Below, piece by piece: positions 1-16,053 of a stretch of 64,000 nt of DNA. The translations under genes and the position numbers were made by a program. The stretch's first letter is position 1; every line of letters begins with the position of its first letter. Below the pieces are notes generated by a model. That model searched no databases. It was not told where the DNA came from and was given only the letters and a program-made list of their open reading frames with translations. The stretch lies in NCBI RefSeq assembly GCF_021513235.1, contig NZ_CP090976.1:1488001-1552000 (forward strand), written 5' to 3'. The stretch is from Kaistella sp. 97-N-M2. Its GTDB lineage: Bacteria; Bacteroidota; Bacteroidia; Flavobacteriales; Weeksellaceae.

Positions 1-2141
1 GTTCCGGTTGCGCCAGGTTTTGTGCAGGGGCAAATGTCGCTTGAAAGTTCGTTTGACCTTACCGTACAGCCTCCCGAAAATGTAATAATCACATAATAAT
101 CTGCACTTACACCATCGTTGATAGGATTTAGCGTGTACGAATTCATTGTAGCGCCACTGATTGATTCATCATTTCTGTACCATTGATAGGTGCCTAAGCC
201 CGCGGGTACAGACAATCTGCTTTTGCCCACGCAAGGATATAGATAAGTAGTGTCCAGCGTGATCGTATAAATAGGCGTTTCCCCAAATCCGGAGTAATAT
301 CCTCCAAATCCGGCGTCTCCGTTGGCTCCGATAATTTCCGCCTGAATCGTTCCGGCGGAGGTCACTTTCACGTTTCCATTAGATGCAATCGGATATCGGT
401 AGGTAACCCAGTTCGCATTTCCCGTAACAACTCCTCCTGTGTTGGGTGAGCTTGTTGCTAATGCTATTCCGTTCAAGGTCGCCACCGGTTTGTTAGAAAC
501 CCCCGCGGCTGCCAACACAACCAGCTCGGTTCCGGTGTAGGCGGTGGTGCCAATTTTATTTGCATCGGGGACCAAATCTACCTGCTTCTGCCCAAAACAG
601 GAGAGGGGTGGGATGAACATTAAACTGTTCGTATTAATCCTGTCGCTTCCGAAGATTTTATGGAAAATATAGGAAGGCTGCGACACGCGCACGAACATAT
701 TTTTATTGATGAAGTAAGTACTTGGGATTAAAAAATAATCTCCTGCCTTCAAAAGGGTAGCGACGCGGTTTGCGTTTCCGTTCACAAAAACAGCGGTGTT
801 ATCTTCAGTAGCTACTACAATAACTTTCTCGGCACTTCCGCCATTGCCCTGCATGATAACATGTTCCAGTCCCAGTCTTTCTTTCGGCACCAACTGGTCT
901 AGACCAATATCTCTGTTGTCTGCGGAGTTTCCCTGCTGCATTAGACCGCCTACTACAACGCTGATGTTTTTATCAGATAGCACTTTTGCGCCCAGCCATC
1001 CGGTGTCTTGAATGCTTAAAACATTGTTCTGAACAGGCGCATATAAAATAAATGATTCTCCTTTTTTTAGCGTTCGGGTGATATTTGGACCCACTAAAGT
1101 TGTGCCTGCCGTGCCATTTACAAATTTAGTTCCCGTTTTGATGTTGGAGATAATGATTTTGGTATCGTCCTCGGTAGCCAGGATCGACAACATGTTTCCC
1201 GTTTCTGTAATCGTTGTAGGAAATTCAACCGGTGATCCGCCCCAACGAAATTCTTTCCCCAAAGCCACCGTGCCTTTCGTCAACACAGATCCCGCTTGCG
1301 GAGTTGATCTTGCTCTGTAATTCACATAAAATTTATCAGCGGCCGTGTTTGCTTTAAATATCAAACCTTGCGCAGTACCCGGGATAACTGTGCCGGAGGT
1401 ATTTAAAGGCACTGTGATCGGAGTTGTGCCGGGAGCAATAATCGAATTGTTTGGATTTACAAATTGTAGCCGAATTGGATTGCCGTTATTAAAAATGAGT
1501 TTTCCATCGGCAACGTAAGTAACGACACCTGTCGTAATATTGGTAACAGAAACCCGCGGGGCAGTAGTTGCCGCCGCGTAGCTCATTTGAACCGTAATAT
1601 TTGCAGCAGAGGGAGTAGATAAATAAATATATTCTTCTGATATTGTTGAAGTAGTGTAAGCTCCGGCAACAATTGGATTTAAATAATGAGTAGTATCTAA
1701 CTGTAAATTATTTTTGAAATTTTTTACTGACAATGAACGTTTCCCGCGACCTGCTTCTAAGATCCAGTCTCCATCAATCCCCGTAATGTTGGTCGATGCA
1801 GAAACGGAAATATTTAAGGCATTTTCCAGATACGCTACCGCAGCCAGACCTTTTTCTCCCTGAGCGAAATTGCACCCATAAACGTACAGTTCCGATTTGC
1901 CCCGGAGTTCATTTTTAAATCGTTTCGCAATTTGGGCGGCATTCAACCATTCATGCTCTACCAACAATTCGCCAGGTCGTCCGTGGCTGAATAAATGATA
2001 AGTTTCTGGATTTGGGTTCGATGAATCTAGGGTCAGTTTTGGAACCGAAGGATCGACAAAAACAGAGGATGCTGCCTTGTTTTTTGCGCAGAAAAGCGCT
2101 TGGCAAAAAATTGCCAGAACTAGAAATAAATTTTTACTCAT
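1..2141 (-). CDS. Large exported surface protein, N-terminal part (DUF4347-like and IgGFc-binding-like domains), runs off left edge
   Basis: The reading frame is open from an ATG at 2141 to the left edge, so 713 codons are visible and the C-terminus is missing. Residues 1-22 form a signal peptide (MSKNLFLVLAIFC...). Residues 45-130 match the second half of DUF4347, seen in giant adhesins: SHGRPG at 52-57, YGCN at 88-91, ASTN at 115-118 and GDW at 124-126. Around residues 350-515 (about 600-1090) the text resembles the N-terminal domain of IgGFc-binding proteins, with a GGLMQQG...RDIGLDQLVP stretch and a VVATEDNT motif. An Ig/PKD-like segment (TYQWYRNDE) lies near residues 640-700. In Flavobacteriia such proteins usually end in a T9SS or gliding-motility C-terminal domain, which is an inference here. 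Function is probably adhesion or cell-surface binding; the ligand is unknown. Confidence 0.75.
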   Translation of the reverse strand, partial: MSKNLFLVLAIFCQALFCAKNKAASSVFVDPSVPKLTLDSSNPNPETYHLFSHGRPGELLVEHEWLNAAQIAKRFKNELRGKSELYVYGCNFAQGEKGLAAVAYLENALNISVSASTNITGIDGDWILEAGRGKRSLSVKNFKNNLQLDTTHYLNPIVAGAYTTSTISEEYIYLSTPSAANITVQMSYAAATTAPRVSVTNITTGVVTYVADGKLIFNNGNPIRLQFVNPNNSIIAPGTTPITVPLNTSGTVIPGTAQGLIFKANTAADKFYVNYRARSTPQAGSVLTKGTVALGKEFRWGGSPVEFPTTITETGNMLSILATEDDTKIIISNIKTGTKFVNGTAGTTLVGPNITRTLKKGESFILYAPVQNNVLSIQDTGWLGAKVLSDKNISVVVGGLMQQGNSADNRDIGLDQLVPKERLGLEHVIMQGNGGSAEKVIVVATEDNTAVFVNGNANRVATLLKAGDYFLIPSTYFINKNMFVRVSQPSYIFHKIFGSDRINTNSLMFIPPLSCFGQKQVDLVPDANKIGTTAYTGTELVVLAAAGVSNKPVATLNGIALATSSPNTGGVVTGNANWVTYRYPIASNGNVKVTSAGTIQAEIIGANGDAGFGGYYSGFGETPIYTITLDTTYLYPCVGKSRLSVPAGLGTYQWYRNDESISGATMNSYTLNPINDGVSADYYVIITFSGGCTVRSNELSSDICPCTKPGATG

Positions 2142-2390
2142 TTGTGTGTGTGAGAGTGTTTAATCAAAATTTAAAGCAATATTTGCCCAAATTTTTTGCA
2201 AAACTAGGCAAAATAAATTAAATATCTAAAGCAGATTTATCGAAAGCTAAAATTCAAAACCAATTCTAATTTTTTTTTCTGCCAAAATTTCCCGTTACTT
2301 TCTCAAGCGGTGACAGATTTTCAGATAAACTTTGATGGCATTGTTTTAGTAAAACTGAGAACATAACATTAACATTTAAATCAAAATAAT

Positions 2391-2669
2391 ATGTCAGTAA
2401 AATTTAGACCATTAGCAGACCGCGTTCTAATTGAACCAAATGCTGCAGAAACGACAACCGCTTCCGGAATTATTATTCCCGATACTGCAAAGGAAAAACC
2501 TCAGGAAGGTACTGTAATCGCAGTAGGACCGGGAAAAGTAGATGAGCCAACCACTGTGAAAGAAGGTGATAAAGTTCTTTACGGAAAATACGCCGGTTCC
2601 GAATTAAAGTTGGATGGTAAAGATTATTTGATCGTAAAAGAATCTGACCTCTTGGGAATTTTGGGATAA
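2391..2669 (+). CDS. groES: Co-chaperonin GroES
   Basis: Encodes the 10-kDa heptameric lid of the GroEL folding chamber in the cytoplasm. The 92 residues cover the usual family length. It starts with [12 protein letters not shown], followed by the mobile-loop region (about residues 18-33, [16 protein letters not shown]), then VGPGK and [10 protein letters not shown], all standard GroES features. It lies 91 bases ahead of groEL on the same strand, so the two form the usual operon. No CIRCE element (TTAGCACTC-N9-GAGTGCTAA) is visible upstream, so HrcA control is not indicated by the sequence. Confidence 0.98.
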
Positions 2670-2748
2670 AAAAATGGTAGAAATTGCAACTCAATTACGA
2701 GGTGTTTTTCTGCGCAGAACTATTTAAAAATCATTGTACAAACATTAA

Positions 2749-4386
<1,638 letters not shown>

Positions 4387-4411
4387 TTCGCATCCACTCC
4401 ATATTATAATT

Positions 4412-4445
4412 AATCCGTTCAGAATTTTCTGAGCGGATTTTTTTT
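4412..4445 (+). terminator. Rho-independent terminator after groEL
   Basis: Two 12-base arms, 4412-4423 and 4428-4439, pair with one G-T wobble around a 4-base loop and are followed by a run of T to 4445. It ends the groES-groEL transcript. Confidence 0.85.
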
Positions 4446-4799
4446 CCCATAATCATTGCGCTTACTTTTTCTTTAGTAATTCTTTTTAATTGACATTACG
4501 GTTTTCCATAATGCTGTTTCTTTATTAAAAATTAGTTTTGTGGAAATCAATTGAACAATATTATTTTGAACGGTTTCATTTGTATTTCCAGGCATTTAAA
4601 CTTCATAATATAAAAAAATTCTTAGAGTCTCTGCGGAATAATTAAAGACATGAGATCAATTGAAATTAAATTTTGAAGTTATTATCTTCAAATTATTTTA
4701 AATAGGTTCTTACCCAATTACGCTAAAAAGATCAGGTAAAAAGCCGCAGTATTATCTTTCGAAATTCAAATCCATTAAAGAAAACTTAAAAATTTAAAT
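4446..4799. other. AT-rich intergenic gap between groEL and the CsgG-like operon
   Basis: About 350 bases with no convincing reading frame, tRNA or structured RNA. It must hold the promoter of the operon starting at 4800, but I could not find a full TTG/TAnnTTTG pair in it. Confidence 0.5.
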
Positions 4800-5330
4800 A
4801 TGAAAAAATCATTAATTACTGCCACCATTCTTCTATCCTTTACCTTCACATTTGCGCAAACCAAAGAAGAAATCCAATCTTCGGACGCGAGAATGGAAAA
4901 AATTCAAAAACTGGAAACTCCAAAATCTACAAGTATTGCAACGCTTGATGATTTGAATGTAACAATTGGAGCTTCAGCGATTGAGTCCGCTTCAATTACT
5001 CCACTTCTTAAGGGTCTTTATTACAGATCCGTTGGAGAAAGTACAGATGGTGTTGCAGATGTTACTATAAAGAAACCAAGTTTGGCGGAATGCCAGGAAT
5101 TAGCTTCTAGAATTTTAACTCAGGTGAAAACGGTACAAACCATTACCTCATCACTTCCGTCGGTAACAGAAGAAGCAAAAACCATAAAAAATCCTTTAAA
5201 ATTAGCTAAAGTTGCGTCGTCACTAGGATACGTAAAAACAGCGGTATCACTTTTAGGAGAAGAAACTTTGTTTCAATCTAAAGCCATAAAAAGTATCATA
5301 CAAACACTAACCTCAGCAGGTAATTTATAA
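4800..5330 (+). CDS. Exported protein of unknown function, first gene of CsgG-like operon
   Basis: I do not recognise a family. The 176-residue product has a clear signal peptide (MKKSLITATILLSFTFTFAQ, cleavage probably after FAQ) and no transmembrane segment or lipobox afterwards, so it is likely periplasmic or surface-exposed. The mature part is mostly polar and probably helical, rich in Ser, Thr and Lys, with one Cys. Its stop codon overlaps the next start as TAATG at 5328-5332, so translation of the CsgG-like gene is coupled to it. Its position as first gene suggests it is a substrate or accessory factor of the downstream proteins; this is inference. Confidence 0.85.
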   Translation: MKKSLITATILLSFTFTFAQTKEEIQSSDARMEKIQKLETPKSTSIATLDDLNVTIGASAIESASITPLLKGLYYRSVGESTDGVADVTIKKPSLAECQELASRILTQVKTVQTITSSLPSVTEEAKTIKNPLKLAKVASSLGYVKTAVSLLGEETLFQSKAIKSIIQTLTSAGNL

Positions 5331-6169
5331 TGCGGCTTCGTTTTTTTTTACTGACGGTATTTTTTCTCATTTTAAAAATAAATGCACAGCATAACGACGA
5401 CCGAATGGTAGTTGGCGTAAGTGCATTTACATGCGACGAAAATAACAGATTTGTTGGTTTGGTTACTGAGAAAGTGGTAGAAATGCTTACCAACACGAAA
5501 CGGTTCCGCGTTGTCGACAGAACCAGTATGGAAAAAGTAAATGAAGAGCTTGAACTGCAGAAATCTGAAGCATTTATAGACAGTAAAAATTTAGTCGAAC
5601 AGGGTGCGAATCTTGCGGCTGAAAAATTAATAACCGGACATATCACAAAAATACCGGTTTATGCCATGAAAAATTCTGTCGGAACTATTAATGGGTATAA
5701 AGCGAGTGTAGCTTTTCAGATGAAAGTTGTAGATGTATCTTCAGGGTTAAGTACAGATGCCACAAGTTTTGAAGGTAAAGCAAGTGACTTAATGCTTTCG
5801 CCCGAAAGTGCGGTACAACAGGCGATGAGATCGGTGCAGAATGAAATTCATCAGTATTTTAAAATCAATTTTGCATTGGTTGGTAAAATTGTAAAAATTC
5901 TTCCTATAGATGATAAGAATAAACTGAAAGTATTGCTTAATGTGGGCAAGAATTCGGGGATTAAAGTAGGAGATAAATTCACGGTGGAATCTGTAGAAAT
6001 GATTGAAAATCAAAAATACCCGCAGAAAATCGGCGTTTTGGAAATTGTAAATCTTGCCGGCGAAAACCTGAGCGAAGCTTTAATTTCTGATAAAAAATCT
6101 ATTGCGCAGATTACTGCAGATTTTGAAGCTAAAAAATTAGTAGAATGTACTTTAATATTGAAGAATTAA
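5330..6169 (+). CDS. CsgG/LpoB-type exported protein with FlgT-like C-terminal region
   Basis: A 279-residue protein with an N-terminal signal peptide (LTVFFLILKINAQ). Residues 25-150 follow the CsgG/LpoB pattern: VVGVSAF strand, VTEKVVEMLTNTKRFRVVDR, a following helix, then a GANLAAEKLITGHI-type segment. The C-terminal part (about 175-279) has ALVGKIVKILP and NVGKNSGIKVGDKFTV, resembling the FlgT C-terminal domain. CsgG forms the curli secretion pore, while LpoB-like relatives are periplasmic regulators; there is no lipobox here, so a nonameric outer-membrane pore is not shown. It overlaps both neighbours by one base (TAATG), indicating translational coupling. The precise role is unknown. 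Confidence 0.8.
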   Translation: MRLRFFLLTVFFLILKINAQHNDDRMVVGVSAFTCDENNRFVGLVTEKVVEMLTNTKRFRVVDRTSMEKVNEELELQKSEAFIDSKNLVEQGANLAAEKLITGHITKIPVYAMKNSVGTINGYKASVAFQMKVVDVSSGLSTDATSFEGKASDLMLSPESAVQQAMRSVQNEIHQYFKINFALVGKIVKILPIDDKNKLKVLLNVGKNSGIKVGDKFTVESVEMIENQKYPQKIGVLEIVNLAGENLSEALISDKKSIAQITADFEAKKLVECTLILKN

Positions 6170-6573
6170 TGAAAAATAAATTAAGAATTTTATATGTATT
6201 CGGATTGCTGTTGATGGTGTTCAGCTGTACCAGCAGAAGCATTATTCCTGATATTGGCGTAATAGAATCTAATGAAAATTATATCACCATAGATGTAAAT
6301 TCAGCAAACCCAGAGTATGCCGCAATGTACCAGCTGCTTTTTCGCGGAATTGCAGACAGCAGCCAAAAAACACCTTTAATTAAAGTAAGTGAATCAGCTG
6401 CGAGAAACAGTAATCCCGCATATTTTGAAAACTTTTTTAAAAAAGAAAGGTTTAAAACATTCATCACCTCTTCTACTAAAAATAGGGATTCCTCCCGAAG
6501 AATCGTGATTAATTTAAGTGCGCTGAAATTAGATTTAGAGTACAGTGCAATCATTAGAAAATTTGGTTATTAA
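6169..6573 (+). CDS. Small lipoprotein of unknown function in CsgG-like operon
   Basis: The start is placed at the ATG at 6169 because it overlaps the preceding stop (TAATG) and is directly followed by a lipoprotein signal; an earlier in-frame ATG at 6145 would lie inside the upstream gene. The 134-residue product begins MKNKLRILYVFGLLLMVFSC, with the lipidated Cys at about residue 20. The mature part is basic (several KK, RR and KKER clusters) and has no recognised domain. It probably sits on the inner face of the outer membrane, beside the CsgG-like protein. Confidence 0.8.
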   Translation: MKNKLRILYVFGLLLMVFSCTSRSIIPDIGVIESNENYITIDVNSANPEYAAMYQLLFRGIADSSQKTPLIKVSESAARNSNPAYFENFFKKERFKTFITSSTKNRDSSRRIVINLSALKLDLEYSAIIRKFGY

Positions 6574-6574
6574 T

Positions 6575-7468
6575 ATGAAAAATTATCAACTAAAAATAGT
6601 AGCCTTTCTACTGCTTGTTTTATCTGCACCAAAACTTTCTTCGCAAGTAAATACGTCATCACAGATACAGACCGTTCAACCAAAAATCATGGTTATTCCT
6701 TATGTGAAAGGAGGAGAAGATCTGCGAACAATTTTGGAAAGTGATATTAATAAAAGAATTGCGCTCACAAAAATTAAAGAATCTTTTGACACACGCGGTT
6801 TTACGACAGTCGATTTTGTTGCCAGGCTTAAATCTGCGAAGGACAATAATATTTTTACTTCCGATAACCAAACAGATATCAAGGATCAAATCGTACAAAT
6901 GTCTGGTGCAGATATTTATGTGCAGGCAGAAGTTGATATCAATAAAACCGGTTCCGGAAATTCTGTAGATTTACTTTTAACAGCATTCGAAGTTTCTACT
7001 GGGAATTCACTCTCCAATAAAGTAGGACAAAGTGGTAAGTTTTATACCGACGACTTTGGAAAATTAACTTCCAAAGCGGTAGAAAGTGTTTCTGAAGATT
7101 TTCTAAATGTAATGCAGACCAAATTTACAGATATTGTAAATAACGGAAAATCCATCAATATGGATATTAGTTTTGCACAGGGTTCATCACAAAAAATGTC
7201 TTCAGAAATTGCTCCGGAAAACCTCCCGCTATCTGACCAAATAGAAATGTGGATGGAGAATAATGCCTATAAAAATAATTATCATATTCAAGGTACCACG
7301 GATTTAAGAATGATTTTCGATGATGTTCGAATTCCATTAAAAGATCAAAACGGGAAAAACTACAATACAAATAAATTTGCGTTGGAAATATTTAAATTCT
7401 TTCGCGCTTTAAATCTTCAGGTAGACAAAGATATTAAAGGAAATACCATCTATATCACGATAAAATAA
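6575..7468 (+). CDS. Exported protein, DUF6175-like
   Basis: Translation most likely begins at the ATG at 6575, one base after the previous stop, giving 297 residues with the signal peptide KIVAFLLLVLSAPKLSSQ. The mature protein opens with PKIMVIPY and has a RGFTTVDFVARLK segment and a GADIYVQAEV strand, the layout I associate with the Bacteroidota family DUF6175; the family name is from memory and moderately certain. The fold looks related to the CsgG-type alpha/beta domain, since the same secondary-structure order occurs in the gene at 5330. No catalytic motif is seen. It probably acts with the neighbouring exported proteins. Confidence 0.75.
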   Translation: MKNYQLKIVAFLLLVLSAPKLSSQVNTSSQIQTVQPKIMVIPYVKGGEDLRTILESDINKRIALTKIKESFDTRGFTTVDFVARLKSAKDNNIFTSDNQTDIKDQIVQMSGADIYVQAEVDINKTGSGNSVDLLLTAFEVSTGNSLSNKVGQSGKFYTDDFGKLTSKAVESVSEDFLNVMQTKFTDIVNNGKSINMDISFAQGSSQKMSSEIAPENLPLSDQIEMWMENNAYKNNYHIQGTTDLRMIFDDVRIPLKDQNGKNYNTNKFALEIFKFFRALNLQVDKDIKGNTIYITIK

Positions 7469-7473
7469 AAGCA

Positions 7474-8412
7474 ATGAAAAAAATATTAGTTTCCTTTTTT
7501 ATAAATCTTTGGTTTTTTGGTTTCTCGCAGAATCCATCAGATTTAGGGAAAATACAATTGGCGATCGCTTTTACAGAAAACCAGCAAAGTTCCATCGACC
7601 ATGCTGTGCTGGAAAAAATAGATGGCAAACTCACTCAGCTTTTAGCCAATAATGGAATTGTTTCTACCGGGTATAATAATGGTCTGCTTTTGCAGCCCAG
7701 TTTTATAATTAATGGCAATGAGTTGGTAGAAGGCGGAATGCAAAATATAAATGTTACAGGAATTACCCTGCAGCTTTTAATAAAACAGGATCAGACCAAT
7801 GTTGTTTTTTCCTCTTTTTCAAAAGAACTTAAAGGAACAGGGAGAACGCAGCAGTTGGCGATTAATAATGCGGTAAATTCTCTGTCGGCAAATGATCCCT
7901 TACTGATTAATTTTTTGGAAAAAGGCAAAGAAAAACTGCAGGCATATTACGAGGCAAACTGTAGCAAAATTTTGAATGAAGCGAATAATCTAAGCAGATC
8001 CGGGAGGTATGAGGAATCTTTGGCATTAATCATGTCGGTGCCGGAAACAGCTTCGTGTTATAATACCGCTCAGAGCAAATCCTTAGAGGTTTATAAAAAT
8101 TATCAGAAAAAGATTTGTGCCGAAAATATTAAACAGGCCCAAATGCAGATCGCGTCAAAAGATTATTCTTCTGCCTTCCAGACCTTAGCTGAAATAGACA
8201 CGGAGTCACCTTGTGCTGCACAAAGCAGCAGTTTAATAAAAACAATTGATGCCAAAATAACTGCCGAAGAAAAAAAGCAGTGGGATCTTCAGGTAAAAAT
8301 TTATAATGATGCAGTTTCATTAGAAAAACAGCGTATCAGTGCAATTAAAGATGTTGCAGTCTCCTATTATAAAAGCCAGAAAAGACCCAGCCAGATTATT
8401 ATTGTAAAATAA
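7474..8412 (+). CDS. Exported helical protein, last gene of CsgG-like operon
   Basis: A 312-residue product with signal peptide MKKILVSFFINLWFFGFSQ. Residues 25-150 contain beta strands (IQLAIAFTEN, ITLQLLIKQD) like those of LPP20/FlgT-type outer-membrane accessory proteins. Residues 150-285 are helical, with paired Cys in repeated YEANC, ASCYN, KKICAEN and ESPCAA segments that look like short TPR-like hairpins. No enzyme motif is present. It follows the DUF6175-like gene after 5 bases and closes the operon. Confidence 0.75.
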   Translation: MKKILVSFFINLWFFGFSQNPSDLGKIQLAIAFTENQQSSIDHAVLEKIDGKLTQLLANNGIVSTGYNNGLLLQPSFIINGNELVEGGMQNINVTGITLQLLIKQDQTNVVFSSFSKELKGTGRTQQLAINNAVNSLSANDPLLINFLEKGKEKLQAYYEANCSKILNEANNLSRSGRYEESLALIMSVPETASCYNTAQSKSLEVYKNYQKKICAENIKQAQMQIASKDYSSAFQTLAEIDTESPCAAQSSSLIKTIDAKITAEEKKQWDLQVKIYNDAVSLEKQRISAIKDVAVSYYKSQKRPSQIIIVK

Positions 8413-8609
8413 GCTGTCTCGCTGCTTTCCTGCCATGCGTAAATCCGGAAGGTCTGATGATCTTTTTTATACTTAAATATTTTTGATGTTGAGCCCTTCT
8501 TTTAAATGACTCCATCATAAAAAAGAAAGCGTTTTAATACTGTTATTAACCCTCGGAGATTTTGCTGTTTGAAGTCGATGCTGGGATAGAAGTCCGCGAA
8601 AAAACTATA

Positions 8610-8647
8610 AAAAAAGCCACTTCATCGATTTATGAAACGGCTTTTTT
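8610..8647. terminator. Bidirectional terminator between the CsgG-like operon and pyk
   Basis: AAAAAAGCC at 8610-8618 pairs with GGCTTTTTT at 8639-8647, with five further pairs inside. T runs occur on both strands, so it can end the plus-strand operon and the minus-strand acpP-to-pyk operon. Confidence 0.75.
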
Positions 8648-8663
8648 GATTATTTCGAAACTT

Positions 8664-10109
8664 TTAGATCGTCGTTAATCTCAAAGTATTTGTCTTTCCG
8701 CCTTCATAAGCCGGCGTTGCATTTAAGTTGATCACAAAATCGCCTTTTTCTACAAAGCCGTGCGTGTGCGTTAACATATTTACCTGAATAATGGTTTCGT
8801 CCGTCGATTTTTCCATGTCGTAATGAAAGGCACGCACGCCCCACAATAAATTCAACATTGTTAAAACCCGTTTGTTTGAACTGAAAACAATGATGTTCGA
8901 ATTCGGCCGGTGCGCCGAGATCTGGAACGCCGTGTAACCCGAATAGGTTAACGTAACAATCGCTTCAACATTAGTCGTTTTTGCAATTCTTACGGCTGCC
9001 AAACAAACTCTGTTCGTAATAAAGCGTTCGTCGATACAGTTAAATTCGTGCTCGATAGGAGAGTTTTTCGTCTGATAAAAATGAGTTTGTTCAATATTTT
9101 TTACAATCTTCGACATGTTTTTCACCACATCCACGGGATATCTTCCTACCGAAGTTTCGCCGGAAAGCATCACAGCGTCGGCGCCGTCCAGAACGGAGTT
9201 CGCAACGTCGTTTACCTCGGCTCTTGTTGGCGTTAGGCTCGTGATCATCGTTTCCATCATCTGCGTAGCAATAATAACCGGTTTTGAATATTTTCGCGCG
9301 ATTTCCACCAGATTTTTCTGGATGGCCGGAACTTCTTCCATGGGAACTTCCACACCCAAATCTCCACGTGCCACCATCAGTCCGTCACATTCCAAAAGAA
9401 TCTGCTCGATATTTTTTACGCCTTCAGGTTTTTCGATTTTCGCGATGATTGGCGTTTTCTGCTTATTTGTCGGGTGATTTTTAATGATTTCCTTTAAATC
9501 CCTGATATCCTGTGCATGACGGACGAATGATAAAGCAATCCAATCCAGCTCCAGGTCGAGCATAAAGTTTGCATCTTCCACATCCTTTTCCGTTAAAGCC
9601 GGCAGCGACACATTTGTGTTCGGTAAGTTCACCCCTTTTTTGGAGCTCAACGGTCCACCCTGAATGGTTTTTGCACGTACCGTGTCAATTTCATTGGTCT
9701 CGATAACTTCAAGAACAAGTTTACCATCATCGATCAAAATGCGTTCTCCCGCTTTTACGTCCTGCGGAAACTGTTGATAGGTCATGTAAACACGTTTGGA
9801 GTCGCCTTCAATTTTTTCGTTCGTGAAGGTTAAGATGTCTCCGGGATTCAGATAAGAACCTTCCTTTACAACACCGACGCGAAGTTTCGGACCTTGTAAA
9901 TCTCCCAAAATTCCTACCGAGAAACCATATTCCTGGTTTAATTCCCGAATAGAGGCCACATTTCTTTTAACTAAATCGTAATCTGCGTGCGAAAAATTTA
10001 TTCTGAAAACATCGACTCCCGCCTGGATCAGCTGTAAAATGACTTCCTTGTCAGATGAGGCTGGGCCGAGCGTAGCGATGATTTTTGTCTTTTTTAAATA
10101 CTTATTCAT
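8664..10109 (-). CDS. pyk: Pyruvate kinase
   Basis: Catalyses phosphoenolpyruvate plus ADP to pyruvate plus ATP, the last step of glycolysis, in the cytoplasm. The 481 residues match the usual bacterial length. Visible features are KIIATLGPAS near the N-terminus, DVFRINFSHA, the substrate-binding region KIEKPEG, the ARGDLGVEVP motif, and MLSGETSVGRYP. The C-terminal regulatory domain is present (VTLTYSGYTAF). It overlaps the preceding IPExxxVDY gene by 8 bases and is the last gene before a terminator, so it appears to be co-transcribed with rnc and fabF. Confidence 0.98.
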   Translation of the reverse strand: MNKYLKKTKIIATLGPASSDKEVILQLIQAGVDVFRINFSHADYDLVKRNVASIRELNQEYGFSVGILGDLQGPKLRVGVVKEGSYLNPGDILTFTNEKIEGDSKRVYMTYQQFPQDVKAGERILIDDGKLVLEVIETNEIDTVRAKTIQGGPLSSKKGVNLPNTNVSLPALTEKDVEDANFMLDLELDWIALSFVRHAQDIRDLKEIIKNHPTNKQKTPIIAKIEKPEGVKNIEQILLECDGLMVARGDLGVEVPMEEVPAIQKNLVEIARKYSKPVIIATQMMETMITSLTPTRAEVNDVANSVLDGADAVMLSGETSVGRYPVDVVKNMSKIVKNIEQTHFYQTKNSPIEHEFNCIDERFITNRVCLAAVRIAKTTNVEAIVTLTYSGYTAFQISAHRPNSNIIVFSSNKRVLTMLNLLWGVRAFHYDMEKSTDETIIQVNMLTHTHGFVEKGDFVINLNATPAYEGGKTNTLRLTTI

Positions 10110-10575
10110 AATATTGAATTATTTGGTAAAGCTCTTCGATAGGGCTTAAGGGAAAACTCTGTATTGGAAACATAAGATTTTCCGGGAGCAAAATTAGGGA
10201 AAAATCGTCAGATGGTTCGGATGTTTTCAGGAGATAATCAACATCCTGAAAATGATCGAGCAAAAACCGGTGTTCCTGTTCGCCGGAAAATAACTCGGTA
10301 GAAACTTTCTTCTGAACTGTTTGAACCGATTTGTTTGCAATAAACTGAATGCAGGCTTTTGAATCCCGCTGAAAGCCTTGAAAGCGCGGAAAATAATAAT
10401 CATTGTACGTTCCGTTATAAATAAGATCCGAAATTCGCGAAAAAGTAAAAGAGTTGAGGTTGTTGAGGTGAAAAAAAAGTTCATGCTCCGGAATTTCCTT
10501 TGCCAGACGAACCAAACCTAAAGTGATTTCTTCATCGTCGTCGTCAATGTCAAGCAGTATCTTTTGAGATTTCAA
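10102..10575 (-). CDS. IPExxxVDY family protein
   Basis: A 157-residue cytosolic protein of unknown function belonging to the Bacteroidota family named for its two motifs. Here the motifs are EIPEHELFF (about residues 27-35) and DVDYLLK (about 111-117). The best start is a TTG at 10575, which gives MKSQKILLDID; no ATG is available nearby, and the frame overlaps the end of rnc by 26 bases. It lies between rnc and pyk, overlapping both, so its expression is tightly coupled to them. No catalytic or binding motif is known. Confidence 0.85.
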   Translation of the reverse strand: MKSQKILLDIDDDDEEITLGLVRLAKEIPEHELFFHLNNLNSFTFSRISDLIYNGTYNDYYFPRFQGFQRDSKACIQFIANKSVQTVQKKVSTELFSGEQEHRFLLDHFQDVDYLLKTSEPSDDFSLILLPENLMFPIQSFPLSPIEELYQIIQYYE

Positions 10576-11314
10576 TGATGCTTTGTTTTTTATTTAAAAT
10601 ATAAAAGGCTCTTTGGGCGGCTTTTTCTTCGGCTTTCTTTTTGGAAGTTTCCGTCGCGTTGGATATTTTTTCGTTATCCAGCCAAACGTAGCTTCGGAAA
10701 ACCAGGTTTTTATTGGCCTGCGTTTCTTCGCACGTTTCGTACCTGATGTTGACTTTCTTTTTCTGGCTCCATTCCAGCAGTAAGCCTTTGTAGCTCACAA
10801 TCTTGTTTTCAAGTTTATTGATTTCCGACGGTGTTAAAAGCCTTTCCAAAACAACTTTCTTGCAGGTTTCATAATCCACGTCGAGATAAAGTGCGCCAAT
10901 TAAGGATTCCAGCAGATTTCCGGCGATATTTTCGCTTAAGGTTGTTGGCGATTCATTTTGCAGAAACTGCGTTAAATTCAGTTCTGTACCTAACTTATTT
11001 AGGTTTTTGCGGTTGACGATCTTCGATTTCATCTGCGTTAAATATCCTTCGTTCGCTTCCGGATAAGTGGCGAAAAGATGACACGAAATAATCGCTCCCA
11101 AAACAGAATCACCCAGAAATTCAAGTCTTTCGTAATTTTTAATCTGTTTGTTTCGGGAAGAGGTTTTTAGAGAAAATGCTTCGCGGTAAAGATTGATGTT
11201 TTGAACTTCGCAACCAGTAATTTTACTGATTTCGGTGGTCAAAAAATAATCTTTTTCCGAGAGATTCTTTTTTCTGTTGCTGAGGAAGTGAGAAAGGTAT
11301 TTCTTTAACTCCAT
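10550..11314 (-). CDS. rnc: Ribonuclease III
   Basis: Double-strand-specific endoribonuclease that processes rRNA precursors and other duplex RNAs. The start is placed at the ATG at 11314, 10 bases after the fabF stop, giving 254 residues; a longer reading uses a TTG inside fabF. The RNase III signature ERLEFLGDSVL and the second acidic cluster ESLIGALYLD are present, followed by a C-terminal dsRNA-binding domain (KGLLLEWSQKK... KKKAEEKAAQRAF). Order acpP-fabF-rnc is widely conserved. Confidence 0.95.
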   Translation of the reverse strand: MELKKYLSHFLSNRKKNLSEKDYFLTTEISKITGCEVQNINLYREAFSLKTSSRNKQIKNYERLEFLGDSVLGAIISCHLFATYPEANEGYLTQMKSKIVNRKNLNKLGTELNLTQFLQNESPTTLSENIAGNLLESLIGALYLDVDYETCKKVVLERLLTPSEINKLENKIVSYKGLLLEWSQKKKVNIRYETCEETQANKNLVFRSYVWLDNEKISNATETSKKKAEEKAAQRAFYILNKKQSIIEISKDTA

Positions 11315-11324
11315 CCGTTTTGTC

Positions 11325-12569
11325 TTAGATTTTGGTAAAGAGAACACAGGCATTGTGGCCACCAAAACCGAAAGTGTTGCTCATGCCAATATTAACTTCT
11401 TTTTTAACAGCATGATTGAAGGTGAAATTTAGACGGCTGTCTATCTTTTCGTCATCGGTGAAATGGTTAATGGTCGGCGGAACAATACTGTGTGTAATGG
11501 TGTGCAATACTGCAATAGCTTCAATAACACCTGCTGCACCTAAAAGGTGACCGGTAATGGATTTGGTCGAATTTATTTGAATATCGAAAGCATGTTCGCC
11601 CAATAAGCGGGAAATCGCGTTGGATTCGGCGATGTCTCCCAATGGAGTAGAAGTCCCATGCATGTTAATGTGATCTACTTCGTCGGCCGTTACTCCTGCG
11701 TCTTCGAGACAATTTTTCATTACGAGATAGGCACCTAAACCTTCAGGATGTGGCGCCGTCATATGGTAAGCATCTGCGCTCATTCCACCACCCTTTAATT
11801 CTGCGTAAATAGTAGCACCACGTTTTATGGCGTGTTCGTACTCTTCCAAAATAATCGTTCCTGCACCTTCGCCTAAAACAAAACCGTCACGGTCTTTATC
11901 GAACGGGCGTGAGGCTGTTTTGGGATCTTCATTTCTTGTTGAAAGCGCCATCATCGCATTAAATCCACCAACTCCACTTGCCGTAACTGCAGCTTCGGAA
12001 CCTCCACAAACAATAACGTCGGCTTTTCCGAGCTGGATGAGCATTTTGCCATCAATTAGAGCGTTGGCTGAAGAAGCGCACGCTGACACGGTGGTATAAT
12101 TAGGACCATGAAATCCGTATTCTATGGAAATATGACCGCCTGTAATATCGGCAATCATCTTCGGAATAAAGAAGGGATTAAATCGGGGAACATCGGTATT
12201 TGCCCACCCTAAAACTTCCTGCTCAAAAGTGGATAAACCACCAATTCCGGAACCCCAAATTACGCCAACTCTGTTTTTATCCACGTTGTCCTCCATAATT
12301 CTGGAATGTGCTACAGCTTCTCTGGCAGCAACAACGCCAAACTGAGTGTTTCGATCCATCTTTTTGGACTCTTTCTTATCGAAATAGTTCAGCGGATCGA
12401 AATTTTTGACTTCACAGGCAAATTTGGTTTTAAAATTTGTGGCATCAAAAAGAGTAATAGGAGCGGCACCGCTCTCGCCTCTCACGAGGCTTTCCCAGTA
12501 ATCTTTGGCATTATTTCCAACAGGTGTGATAGCGCCGAAACCGGTAACAACTACTCTTTTTAATTCCAT
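11325..12569 (-). CDS. fabF: Beta-ketoacyl-ACP synthase II
   Basis: Condensing enzyme of fatty-acid elongation that joins malonyl-ACP to an acyl chain. Its 414 residues are full length. The catalytic triad is visible: the Cys in TVSACASSAN, the His in NMHGTSTPLGD, and the Lys/His region STKSITGHLLGAAG. A glycine-rich C-terminal GFGGHN motif is also present. It is 19 bases downstream of acpP, whose product carries its substrates, and upstream of rnc. Confidence 0.98.
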   Translation of the reverse strand: MELKRVVVTGFGAITPVGNNAKDYWESLVRGESGAAPITLFDATNFKTKFACEVKNFDPLNYFDKKESKKMDRNTQFGVVAAREAVAHSRIMEDNVDKNRVGVIWGSGIGGLSTFEQEVLGWANTDVPRFNPFFIPKMIADITGGHISIEYGFHGPNYTTVSACASSANALIDGKMLIQLGKADVIVCGGSEAAVTASGVGGFNAMMALSTRNEDPKTASRPFDKDRDGFVLGEGAGTIILEEYEHAIKRGATIYAELKGGGMSADAYHMTAPHPEGLGAYLVMKNCLEDAGVTADEVDHINMHGTSTPLGDIAESNAISRLLGEHAFDIQINSTKSITGHLLGAAGVIEAIAVLHTITHSIVPPTINHFTDDEKIDSRLNFTFNHAVKKEVNIGMSNTFGFGGHNACVLFTKI

Positions 12570-12588
12570 AAATTTTTTTTGTTGATCG

Positions 12589-12828
12589 TTATTTGTTCAC
12601 TACTTCTTCGATATAAGCGATAGCGTGTCCTACAGTGGTAATTTTCTCTGCTTGATCATCTGGGATTTGAATGTTAAATTCTTTTTCGAATTCCATGATT
12701 AATTCTACAGTATCCAAAGAATCAGCCCCTAAATCGTTAGTGAAGCTAGCTTCTGGAGTTACTTCTGTTTCCTCAACGTCGAGTTTATCAGCGATAATAG
12801 CTTTTACTCTTGATGCAATGTCTGACAT
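12589..12828 (-). CDS. acpP: Acyl carrier protein
   Basis: Small acidic carrier that holds acyl intermediates of fatty-acid synthesis on a 4'-phosphopantetheine arm. The 79 residues contain the attachment motif [10 protein letters not shown], with Ser37 as the modified residue. It is the first gene of the acpP-fabF-rnc-IPExxxVDY-pyk operon. Confidence 0.98.
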
Positions 12829-13059
12829 AGTAATTTATTTTAGTTAATTGTTAATTGGTGCAAATATATAAAATTCTTTATGATTTGCCGTTTTTTTAGT
12901 GATAATTAAGTCTGTAGAGATCGGTTTATTAACCACTTGAAAATAAGTTCCTTCACCATCTTATATGCTAAGATAAGATTAATTTTAAGAAAAATAATCA
13001 TCTACAGTCCATATTTTACGCATTATGCTGCCGGCAGACTAACTTCGTTCCGCCTATAA

Positions 13060-13093
13060 ATAAAAAAGATAGCCCGAATGTACATCGGGCTAC
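13060..13093 (-). terminator. Terminator after the GEVED/T9SS protein gene
   Basis: Arms TAGCCCGA (13070-13077) and TCGGGCTA (13085-13092) pair perfectly. On the minus strand the hairpin is followed by ATCTTTTTTATTTA, so it ends the gene at 13116-14900. Confidence 0.8.
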
Positions 13094-13115
13094 CTCTTAA
13101 TGAATAATCTGATAA

Positions 13116-14900
13116 TTATTTTTTAATTACTTTAAATGATTCATTCACACCTCCTTCAAGAATAGTACTGATGATGTAAACACCTGGAGCAAGTTTGCTC
13201 ATGTCTACTTTACCATTAACTACTTTGGCAGAAATCTGCATTTTTTGACCTGCAAGGTTATAAACGTGAACGGTTTCAATTGCTGTTTTAGAATTGATGT
13301 TCAAGTAATCTTTAACAGGGTTCGGATAGAAAGAAACATTTTTATTTACTGCTTCGGATACCGCTGCTGTAACGCATTCTGCATTTAAAGACCAAACGCT
13401 GTCGTATCGCGCATTTGGATCCGTACTACTTGCAATTACTGCATAAGTAACACCGTTGTCAGAAGACTGATAGTTTGGCGCAGTAATCCAACCGGTTGTA
13501 TAGTTATAGCCGATCCAGAAATAGCTGCTTGCAGAGGCAGAAGTAGATTGAAGAGAAAGCCAGTATCTGGTATCTGCGGCTGGATTTCCTGTTAGTTCAT
13601 AATCGCCAAGATTAATTACTGCGTCGTAAGTTGGGAATCCAGCGAAATTCGCTGCTCCAACAGTTACGGTTGGAATAACTCCATTCCAGGTTTTGATTGC
13701 AGTTCCCGGTGTTCCACTTCCGCTGTCGCTCATAAGTACAACGTCGAATGATTGTAGATCTGTAGTGTCAACTGTTGCAGACTGACGCACAAATGAAGCA
13801 GTCATTGTTTGAAGCTTGTAGCTGGAGAATTCTTTTGGTACGAAGAAGTCATTAGCAACGGCATAATTCAAACTTTTTGTTACTGCGTTTGCCTGAGACC
13901 ATGTACCTGTATAGGTTTGATCGCAACCATAATCAGGCTCAGTAGGTGGAGTTCCGCATTGAACGGATCTTGTATGAAGGGTTGCGCTGGTTCCACTTCC
14001 ACAGGCACTGTCGGTGTGTGCGTAGAATCTTACAACTCCAGTCATAGTCGCAGTCCAGACTACGCTTCCGGTTCCGGAGGCTAAAACTGTTGCTCCTGCA
14101 CTGTCTCCAATTGTAATAAAGTAAGCGGGTTTAGAAACCGTAAAAGTATAGGCCGTGCCCATCGTCACGTTTACAGTAGAATATTCACCTGCATATCCTG
14201 CGGTTGTAATCGTTGCCGGTGCGCCGTTACAGGTTGGGGTAAATGCAGCAGTTGGATAAGCGCCATTAGGAGCAGTTAAACATCCTGTTGGTGCAGCTAC
14301 GCCGACCATTAAACTGTAATCTTCCGTTTCTCCAAAACCTTGGGTTTCATCACAGGCAGCAGCAGCATCAGTAGGCTGCGCTGAATCTGCAGCAACCCGA
14401 ACTCTCATTTTGTATGTTCCGTTCGCTGTGCCCGCTGGTATCGCGATATTTCCGTTAATGACCAGACCTGTGGCGTTTCCATTCGCGTTTCCAATATACG
14501 TGAATTCGCTCGCATCAAACGTATCATTCATATTGTAGTCTACCCAAACAGACACATTTTCATAGGGCCACCCTGTGCCCACTGTAACGGCGATAGGATA
14601 GGACTGTCCCGCCAGTATCGGCGAGGTATTCATCATCGCGGTGTAGTCGCCGTAGCCCCCCGGACTACAGGCCGTGGTGTTGTTAATTCCGCCAAAATTG
14701 ACATTGGTAATCATGTCATCATCACTACAATCTAAAGCCGGCATACAGTACGCAGAGGGCAGATGGCTGGTCGGCGTCGCGATCGCTGCAGCTGTACTCT
14801 TCGCACTTAATGGCTGCGAAGAAACTTTGGATTTGGCACTTTGGCCGAAAGAAGCCAGCGGCAGTAGCGCCAGCATCAGTAAAGGTAATTTTGTTCTCAT
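13116..14900 (-). CDS. T9SS cargo protein with GEVED domain
   Basis: A 594-residue exported protein. Residues 1-20 are a signal peptide (MRTKLPLLMLALLPLASFGQ). Residues 65-200 form a GEVED domain: VSVWVDYNMNDTFDASEF, MRVRVAAD and the family ending FGETEDYSLMV. The middle holds Cys-containing beta-rich repeats and a long Gly/Ser/Thr-rich segment. The C-terminus (about 520-594) is a type A T9SS sorting domain, with SFYPNPVKDYLNI, VHVYNLAGQ, LAPGVYIIS and a basic KVIKK end. It should therefore pass SprA and be anchored or released at the cell surface. Its substrate or partner is unknown. It stands alone, with a terminator behind it. Confidence 0.9.
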   Translation of the reverse strand: MRTKLPLLMLALLPLASFGQSAKSKVSSQPLSAKSTAAAIATPTSHLPSAYCMPALDCSDDDMITNVNFGGINNTTACSPGGYGDYTAMMNTSPILAGQSYPIAVTVGTGWPYENVSVWVDYNMNDTFDASEFTYIGNANGNATGLVINGNIAIPAGTANGTYKMRVRVAADSAQPTDAAAACDETQGFGETEDYSLMVGVAAPTGCLTAPNGAYPTAAFTPTCNGAPATITTAGYAGEYSTVNVTMGTAYTFTVSKPAYFITIGDSAGATVLASGTGSVVWTATMTGVVRFYAHTDSACGSGTSATLHTRSVQCGTPPTEPDYGCDQTYTGTWSQANAVTKSLNYAVANDFFVPKEFSSYKLQTMTASFVRQSATVDTTDLQSFDVVLMSDSGSGTPGTAIKTWNGVIPTVTVGAANFAGFPTYDAVINLGDYELTGNPAADTRYWLSLQSTSASASSYFWIGYNYTTGWITAPNYQSSDNGVTYAVIASSTDPNARYDSVWSLNAECVTAAVSEAVNKNVSFYPNPVKDYLNINSKTAIETVHVYNLAGQKMQISAKVVNGKVDMSKLAPGVYIISTILEGGVNESFKVIKK

Positions 14901-15135
14901 AAGAAAATAAATTTAGTTAAACAAAAATTTGTAATGGTACTAAATTATAAAAATAATTTAATAAAACAACATTTTTGTTAAATTATTTGTTAGGTAACAG
15001 CAATTATAATGTCTATTGTTCAAATTCATCAGTATTCATCAGGTTTTGTCACTTTCGCGCACGACTGATGTTTCCTCATTTTTTTGATGGGGAGTTATCC
15101 ATGGAAAAAATTGATGAAAATTTATAAAAAGAAAA

Positions 15136-16053
15136 CTACTGCATGAACCACTCATTAATTAATGCAGCGGCAAGTCTTGCGGTTTGCTGAGAAGTATCAA
15201 TTTCAGGATTAACTTCGGCCACATCTAAAGCTATGTGTTTATCTGACTGGAGAAGGTGTTTGTAAAGGTGCATGAAAGCAGCATCCGCAAAAATTCCGTT
15301 ATAGGCTGGGGCGGAAACGCCGGGTGCAATCGCGGCGTTGAAAACGTCCATACAAATGGTAATGTATAAAATATCGACCGTTTCTAAAAAATTGTCGAGT
15401 TTTTCATATATAGCAGGAAGGTTTTCAAAGAAAATTTCTTCCGCTAAAATATATTTCATGCCGAAATGGTGCGCAGTATCAAACAGTTTTAAGGTATTTG
15501 AATTTCTTTGAATTCCGATATGAAGAGAATGAATTTTTTCTGAAGCAGCGATCTGCCTAAAACCGGTTCCGGAAGTTGCGCCTGTCCCCGGCTCTATTTC
15601 CCGGTTGTCAAAATGCGCGTCAAAATTGATGATTCCTATTCTTTGTTCAGGAAAAGCCTTTCTAATTCCCGAATAATGACCGAACATTACCTCATGTCCA
15701 CCGCCAAACAAAACAGATTTCGCACCTTTAGTTAAAGTTTCTCTCACTTTTTCAGCGAGTAAGATCTGCGATTTTTCCAAATTTCCATCTTCGCAGGAAA
15801 TATTGCCAAAATCTTTTAAAGCGAATTCAGCATTAACGACGGGAAAATTAGAAATATTTTTTCGAATTACATCCGGCGCATTTTTCGCTCCGGTTCGTCC
15901 TTTGTTTCTGCGTACACCTTCATCCACAGAAAAGCCGTGTAGTACAAAGTCTTTGGGGGAAATCGTTTCGTAATTATTTTCCACAGAAACCCGCTGAAAA
16001 ATACGGTGATATAATGGTTCCTCACCATCGAAGCGTCCGTCCCAATTTGTCAT
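15136..16053 (-). CDS. hutG: Formimidoylglutamase (arginase/ureohydrolase family)
   Basis: Hydrolyses N-formimidoyl-L-glutamate to glutamate and formamide in histidine degradation. The 305 residues show the binuclear Mn2+ motifs of the ureohydrolase fold: GGGHE, NFDAHFDNR, and ICMDVFNAAIAPGVSAP. SGTGFRQI and DVAEVNPEID fit HutG better than arginase or agmatinase; agmatinase is encoded separately at 46361. Other hut genes are not nearby. It begins 18 bases after the paaA stop, so it may be co-transcribed with paaE and paaA. Confidence 0.85.
   Translation of the reverse strand: MTNWDGRFDGEEPLYHRIFQRVSVENNYETISPKDFVLHGFSVDEGVRRNKGRTGAKNAPDVIRKNISNFPVVNAEFALKDFGNISCEDGNLEKSQILLAEKVRETLTKGAKSVLFGGGHEVMFGHYSGIRKAFPEQRIGIINFDAHFDNREIEPGTGATSGTGFRQIAASEKIHSLHIGIQRNSNTLKLFDTAHHFGMKYILAEEIFFENLPAIYEKLDNFLETVDILYITICMDVFNAAIAPGVSAPAYNGIFADAAFMHLYKHLLQSDKHIALDVAEVNPEIDTSQQTARLAAALINEWFMQ

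Follow-up and report, generated by a model that had tools for sequence, protein, structure and literature searches.

The DNA analysed here (the window) is a stretch of 64,000 nucleotides at positions 1,488,001 to 1,552,000 of contig NZ_CP090976.1, from the complete 2.87-Mb genome (G000) of Kaistella sp. 97-N-M2, and the subject is a cassette of five compactly arranged genes for exported proteins, g1 to g5, located on the + strand at window positions 4800-8412 between groES-groEL and pyk. A preliminary description, made from the sequence alone, had read these five packed genes as an uncharacterised envelope operon, and both the packing and the conservation of the unit were confirmed as set out below. 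The features of the locus are as follows.

4800..5330, + strand: g1, exported protein of 176 amino acids (aa), no known family
5330..6169, + strand: g2, exported, non-lipidated protein with a CsgG/LpoB-fold domain followed by a FlgT_C-like domain
6169..6573, + strand: g3, small outer-membrane-type lipoprotein with lipobox Cys20
6575..7468, + strand: g4, DUF6175 protein with a PelC/CsgG/FlgT-middle-like domain and a second alpha/beta domain
7474..8412, + strand: g5, protein with a CsgG/FlgT/LptE-like domain and a helical C-terminal arm resembling tetratricopeptide repeats (TPR)
4412..4439, + strand: terminator-like hairpin 3' of groEL, retained also in near relatives that lack the cassette
4446..8663, strand not applicable: interval missing from the nearest relatives, in which groEL adjoins pyk

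The genes overlap by TAATG at 5328-5332 (g1/g2) and 6167-6171 (g2/g3), and are separated by 1 base between g3 and g4 and by 5 bases between g4 and g5. Because the groEL hairpin persists in near relatives without the cassette, the cassette is probably a transcription unit of its own; a promoter scan gave a site count no higher than in shuffled sequences. Export signals are conserved across the orthologues: in g1, g2, g4, and g5 a Gln after the signal peptide is either invariant or conserved to at least 90%, and in g3 the lipobox Cys is likewise at least 90% conserved. The lipobox lies, as had been noted, on the separate small protein encoded from 6169 and not on the CsgG-like protein, the signal peptide of which ends NAQ-H with Gln20 invariant in 33 of 33 members and which has no acylated Cys. 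Between genera of the family, nonsynonymous divergence (dN) of the cassette genes was 0.09-0.45 against a synonymous divergence (dS) of at least 1.5 or saturated, which indicates purifying selection on all five genes.

By scanning genome records with g4, 37 loci were recovered from Flavobacteriales, Bacteroidales, Sphingobacteriales, Chitinophagales, Cytophagales, and Saprospiria, the organism names of many loci being those of metagenome bins. In most of these the genes g2-g3-g4-g5 are present with order and strand kept, and in about half g1 additionally stands in front of g2; a gene order recurring in so many genomes is not due to chance. A lack of conserved neighbours in related genomes had been named beforehand as grounds for abandoning the preliminary description, and the neighbours proved to be conserved well beyond Flavobacteriia. 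Clustering of all flanking open reading frames revealed no further recurrent family beyond 4 loci, and the flanks are not conserved. The slowest-evolving and most conserved member is g4, at about 70-77% from order to order; the values for g1, g2, g3, and g5 drop to 30-48%. In the family, 20 of 286 good genomes gave g4 matches at E 0.001, remote types included. Of 395 genomes sampled across the phylum, 19 had DUF6175, 18 had g5, and 16 had both (Fisher 1e-23, uncorrected for relatedness).

Several cassette variants were distinguished. All 21 cassettes whose g2 is >42% identical to that of the window have g1 beside them, and cassettes with a diverged g2 subtype lack it; where the upstream sequence was sufficient, g1 was present in 18 of 18 cassettes of the former kind vs 0 of 13 of the latter (relatedness uncorrected). 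Since g1 tracks the window-like subtype, it is probably a functional partner of that g2. One genome has g1 downstream of g5 and not upstream of g2 (L015:1-534), and in Kaistella pullorum an extra, diverged copy of g2 immediately precedes g1 (L028:6097-7059). Some Saprospiraceae, as well as Runella, have g2 after g4 or g5, sometimes with a longer second copy. A second cassette type, occurring in other Kaistella, Flavobacteriaceae, and more, carries in place of g2 and g1 a protein of 400 aa (protein X), the C-terminal part of which is weakly similar to the FlgT_C-like region of g2. In a third type, which occurs in distant families of Bacteroidota, a single polypeptide comprises g3 and g4 (L113, L114, and L121), and g5 has an added N-terminal LPP20 domain; in L122, where the g4 part alone was detected, the fusion is likely as in a fourth genome.

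Several near relatives with GroEL 97-99% identical have groEL followed directly by pyk at a distance of about 210 bp, and homology between the window and these cassette-less relatives ends near 4445 and resumes near 8664, at the 3' end of pyk. The cassette is likewise situated behind groEL in Halpernia (L029) and in another genus (L123), and elsewhere in G306, which belongs to the same genus as the window. From these differing and empty sites it follows that the whole unit was gained, lost, or moved together. The groEL-pyk interval (L127-L155) varies in gene content from species to species within the genus and looks like a variable insertion site. A mobile element was rejected, as neither flanking repeats nor an integrase were present and no target duplication was seen at the boundaries in comparison with the empty site. 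Horizontal transfer within the family, considered on account of a g4 tree that pairs the window with a Chryseobacterium sequence, was also rejected, and the approximately unbiased (AU) test does not reject the grouping of the window g4 with its genus (p 0.086). Across orders, the labels are scattered (10 changes vs a minimum of 4), a count weakened by the labels of metagenome-assembled genomes and by long branches.

The protein encoded from 5330 had been described as CsgG-like with a FlgT-like tail, and this characterisation held: g2 scores above the Pfam cut-offs for CsgG (34.7 bits vs 20.8) and LpoB (37.1 vs 22.3), and within its family (n = 33) CsgG is matched by 30 members and LpoB by 32 at E 0.01 or better, so that a profile search without a match, the other outcome named beforehand as fatal, was not obtained. 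The tail is weakly FlgT_C-like, its score of 21.4 bits lying slightly under the cut-off of 27; at E 0.01, FlgT_C was matched by 5 of the 33 members and FlgT_M by 3. The top match of the g2 family profile was FlgT (3W1E), across the border of the middle and C-terminal domains, at a weak E of 0.013. By profile comparison, g2 is linked to g5 at 94% and weakly to g4 (36-64%). For g1, no match to any known family was obtained.

For g4, the assignment of the protein encoded from 6575 to DUF6175 (PF19672) was unambiguous (283.1 bits vs a cut-off of 23). In its AlphaFold2 model (mean predicted local distance difference test score, pLDDT, 84.5), a PelC-like domain is followed by a second alpha/beta domain, and residues 34-190 match PelC (Z 11.5, the best), CsgG (Z 10.4), and FlgT (Z 9.3). 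The g5 model (mean pLDDT 81.3) matches HpaA (Z 9.1), FlgT (Z 8.6-8.8), CsgG (Z 8.0), and LptE-type lipoproteins over residues 24-160 (Z 7-9 overall). In the structure lists, these fold matches bear on g4 to residue 191 and on g5 to residue 161, and the fold assignments are limited to these parts. The N-terminal part of the protein encoded from 7474 had been called LPP20/FlgT-like; the LPP20 label failed by both sequence and model, and profile and model make the domain CsgG/FlgT-middle-domain-like instead. LPP20 was not among the listed profile matches of g5 members, and was matched in longer distant homologues only (E 1.3e-7 and 6.7e-6). The helical, TPR-like arm of g5 contains four conserved Cys residues (163, 195, 215, and 247, spacing 32-20-32); its match to PrimPol (E 0.008) was discarded as a helical-repeat artefact. 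Searches of PDB sequences with g3, g4, and g5 gave chance matches only.

The lipoprotein g3 carries an almost invariant C-terminal motif, NxxALRxDLExxxIIRKFGY, and matched no family. As a side observation, g3 of Weeksellaceae (window:6169-6573) is without some 20-25 residues (the RxxGxGxxxxxAxxxA region) that are kept in other orders. Of all the observations, the fusion of g3 with g4 in distant relatives hints most strongly that the two are in direct contact. A classification of g3 as LPP20 by sequence was rejected, and an LPP20 search of the Kaistella genome itself gave no match, but the controls gave none either. Searches for a defence system (no relevant PADLOC match) and for a structured RNA (no Rfam match in 1-16000) led to the rejection of both candidates.

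That the five proteins form a shared complex is well supported, albeit by inference. The reading that we favour, with a probability of about 0.45, is that the operon encodes a periplasmic ring or collar not described before, non-flagellar and anchored by a lipoprotein, with domains of the FlgO/P/T and PelC types, the ring shape being suggested by structural analogy. The lipoprotein g3 would tether a single periplasmic complex to the outer membrane on its periplasmic side, and may bind g4, as the fusion suggests. The proteins g2, g4, and g5, sharing the alpha/beta domain of the ring-forming PelC, CsgG, and FlgT, would probably oligomerise to the ring or collar; partners or cargo would dock on the SH3-like FlgT_C domain of g2 and on the helical arm of g5, and g1 may be a helical accessory protein that goes with a single g2 subtype. 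The analysis establishes the operon, its conservation, the co-occurrence, the fusion, and the fold class; from these we infer the physical assembly, the ring shape, and the docking roles. FlgI was not found in the genome of the window (three control genomes were positive), in agreement with the earlier remark that flagellar genes are missing, and the curli genes lie separately; together these favour a non-flagellar collar under the outer membrane. A more elaborate version, in which three paralogous ABL-fold subunits are combined with interchangeable FlgT_C-bearing partners (g2 or the unrelated protein X) in a ring machine possibly related to the flagellar H-ring domain kit, appears doubtful.

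Several points weigh against the collar. The evidence for a complex and a ring consists of the genes and of single-chain models of g4 and g5. Prolyl-tRNA synthetase domains reach Z 9.8 against g4, and because such unlike proteins score in the same range, the g4 model shows a fold class and not a function. ABL-type relatives that are not rings are known (LptE, LpoB, and the N-domain of TolB), so the fold alone is no proof of a ring. The sequence matches of the cassette proteins to FlgT are weak, the LPP20 profile finds nothing in 29 members of g3, and as FlgI is absent from the genome, the collar would have no evident structure to surround.

The earlier suggestion of a secretion channel or an envelope-ring assembly was upheld for the ring, with which the folds of g2, g4, and g5 agree, and not for the channel. 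As a channel of the CsgG/HfaB type, g2 would be an outer-membrane beta-barrel pore, with g1 or another exported protein as cargo; the CsgG score of g2 and the exported g1 immediately upstream of it, paired with one g2 subtype, agree with this. But g2 has no lipobox, its first transmembrane (TM1) region is 8 residues shorter than that of E. coli CsgG, and only 44 residues extend from the STG-equivalent motif to the FlgT_C-like domain vs 93 in E. coli CsgG, which hold the TM2 hairpin, so that g2 has no room for this hairpin and does not provide the two transmembrane beta-hairpins per subunit of the CsgG channel. In addition, g1 is missing from many otherwise intact cassettes, no beta-barrel protein stands beside the cassette in the loci examined, neither a CsgE/CsgF partner nor an amyloid cargo is encoded in the cassette, and a true curli-like csgE-csgF-csgG set lies elsewhere in the genome (L001, G000:C1:2727055-2730696), all of which makes the channel highly improbable. 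The CsgG of that set has 453 aa in all, with a long C-terminal extension. Less improbable, though still decidedly unlikely, is a cell-wall regulator in which g2, positioned by the other proteins, would activate a peptidoglycan synthase in the manner of LpoB. LpoB is the best Pfam match of g2 and is found in nearly all members, but g2 scores 32.7 bits against the LpoB equivalog TIGR02722, far under the cut-off of 110.55, it has neither a lipid anchor nor a long linker across the periplasm, and no peptidoglycan gene is consistently neighbouring.

A collar assisting the transport of a surface polymer or lipid, like PelC-PelB or LptE-LptD, and serving a beta-barrel encoded elsewhere, would account for PelC as the best structural match of g4, for the matches of g5 to LptE-like and HpaA lipoproteins, and for its helical arm, which recalls the TPRs of PelB; yet the loci examined showed neither polysaccharide or lipid synthesis genes nor a barrel in association with the cassette, and the same folds occur in non-transport proteins, so that this function is unlikely. 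A periplasmic complex with a role in stress or signalling, to which CHAT-protease or TPR proteins would be coupled in some species, is suggested by a Saprospiraceae locus (L060) that encodes a signal-peptide-bearing CHAT protease 20 bp upstream of g2 and by a large TPR protein abutting g3 in Runella (L061), but either association is limited to one or two loci and the gene is absent from the window and most relatives; we regard this explanation as very unlikely. The CHAT-family protease (L060:3211-5499) also has TPRs and a C-terminal membrane segment, and two unrelated genomes have, next to the cassette or close to it, a TPR protein whose N-terminal region they share (L061:6163-8367 and L119:2-463).

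In the literature searched, there was no description of the operon, no experiment on any of its proteins, and no paper mentioning DUF6175, a family without a described function, for which gene context and a fold are now available. Bacteroidota envelopes contain many uncharacterised multi-protein assemblies, of which the cassette is a compact example recurring throughout the phylum and accessible in the culturable genera Kaistella, Flavobacterium, and Epilithonimonas. If a ring is formed, flagella and known exporters are not the sole users of the FlgT/FlgP/PelC domain kit, and the cassette offers a natural comparison for the origin of flagellar outer rings.

Among known systems, the CsgG/HfaB pores share the core CsgG domain with g2 and the fold class with g4 and g5, but g2 differs from them in being non-lipidated, without the TM2 hairpin, and extended by the FlgT_C-like domain. 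LpoB, the activator of PBP1b, resembles g2 by its domain profile, whereas g2 stays below the equivalog cut-off and is without anchor or linker. To our knowledge, DUF6175 and g1 have no counterpart in the Vibrio H-ring. The cassette also differs from the H-ring in that no flagellar genes are nearby and sequence similarity to FlgT is very weak, and an assignment to the flagellar basal body is not borne out in a genome without FlgI. Like Vibrio FlgO/FlgP/FlgT, however, it consists of adjacent genes, among them those for a soluble protein weakly similar to FlgT_M/FlgT_C and for a small outer-membrane lipoprotein, and g2, g4, and g5 each match FlgT by profile or structure. In Vibrio fischeri, flgP, flgO, and flgT have consecutive locus tags, VF_1883-1885 (PMC6375700), and an SHS2-like domain is common to FlgP and FlgT, an insertion in which accompanies ring formation in the family (PMC12222027). 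PelC forms a ring of twelve lipoproteins enclosing the TPRs of PelB (PMC12141448). PelC is itself lipidated, whereas the lipoprotein of the cassette is a separate protein and neither a PelB barrel nor Pel synthesis genes accompany it; the N-domain of g4 nevertheless finds its best structural match in PelC, and both systems combine a lipoprotein-linked periplasmic assembly with TPR elements. The mode of action of the cassette would thus resemble that of the Vibrio H-ring proteins FlgO/FlgP/FlgT or of the PelC ring rather than that of the curli pore.

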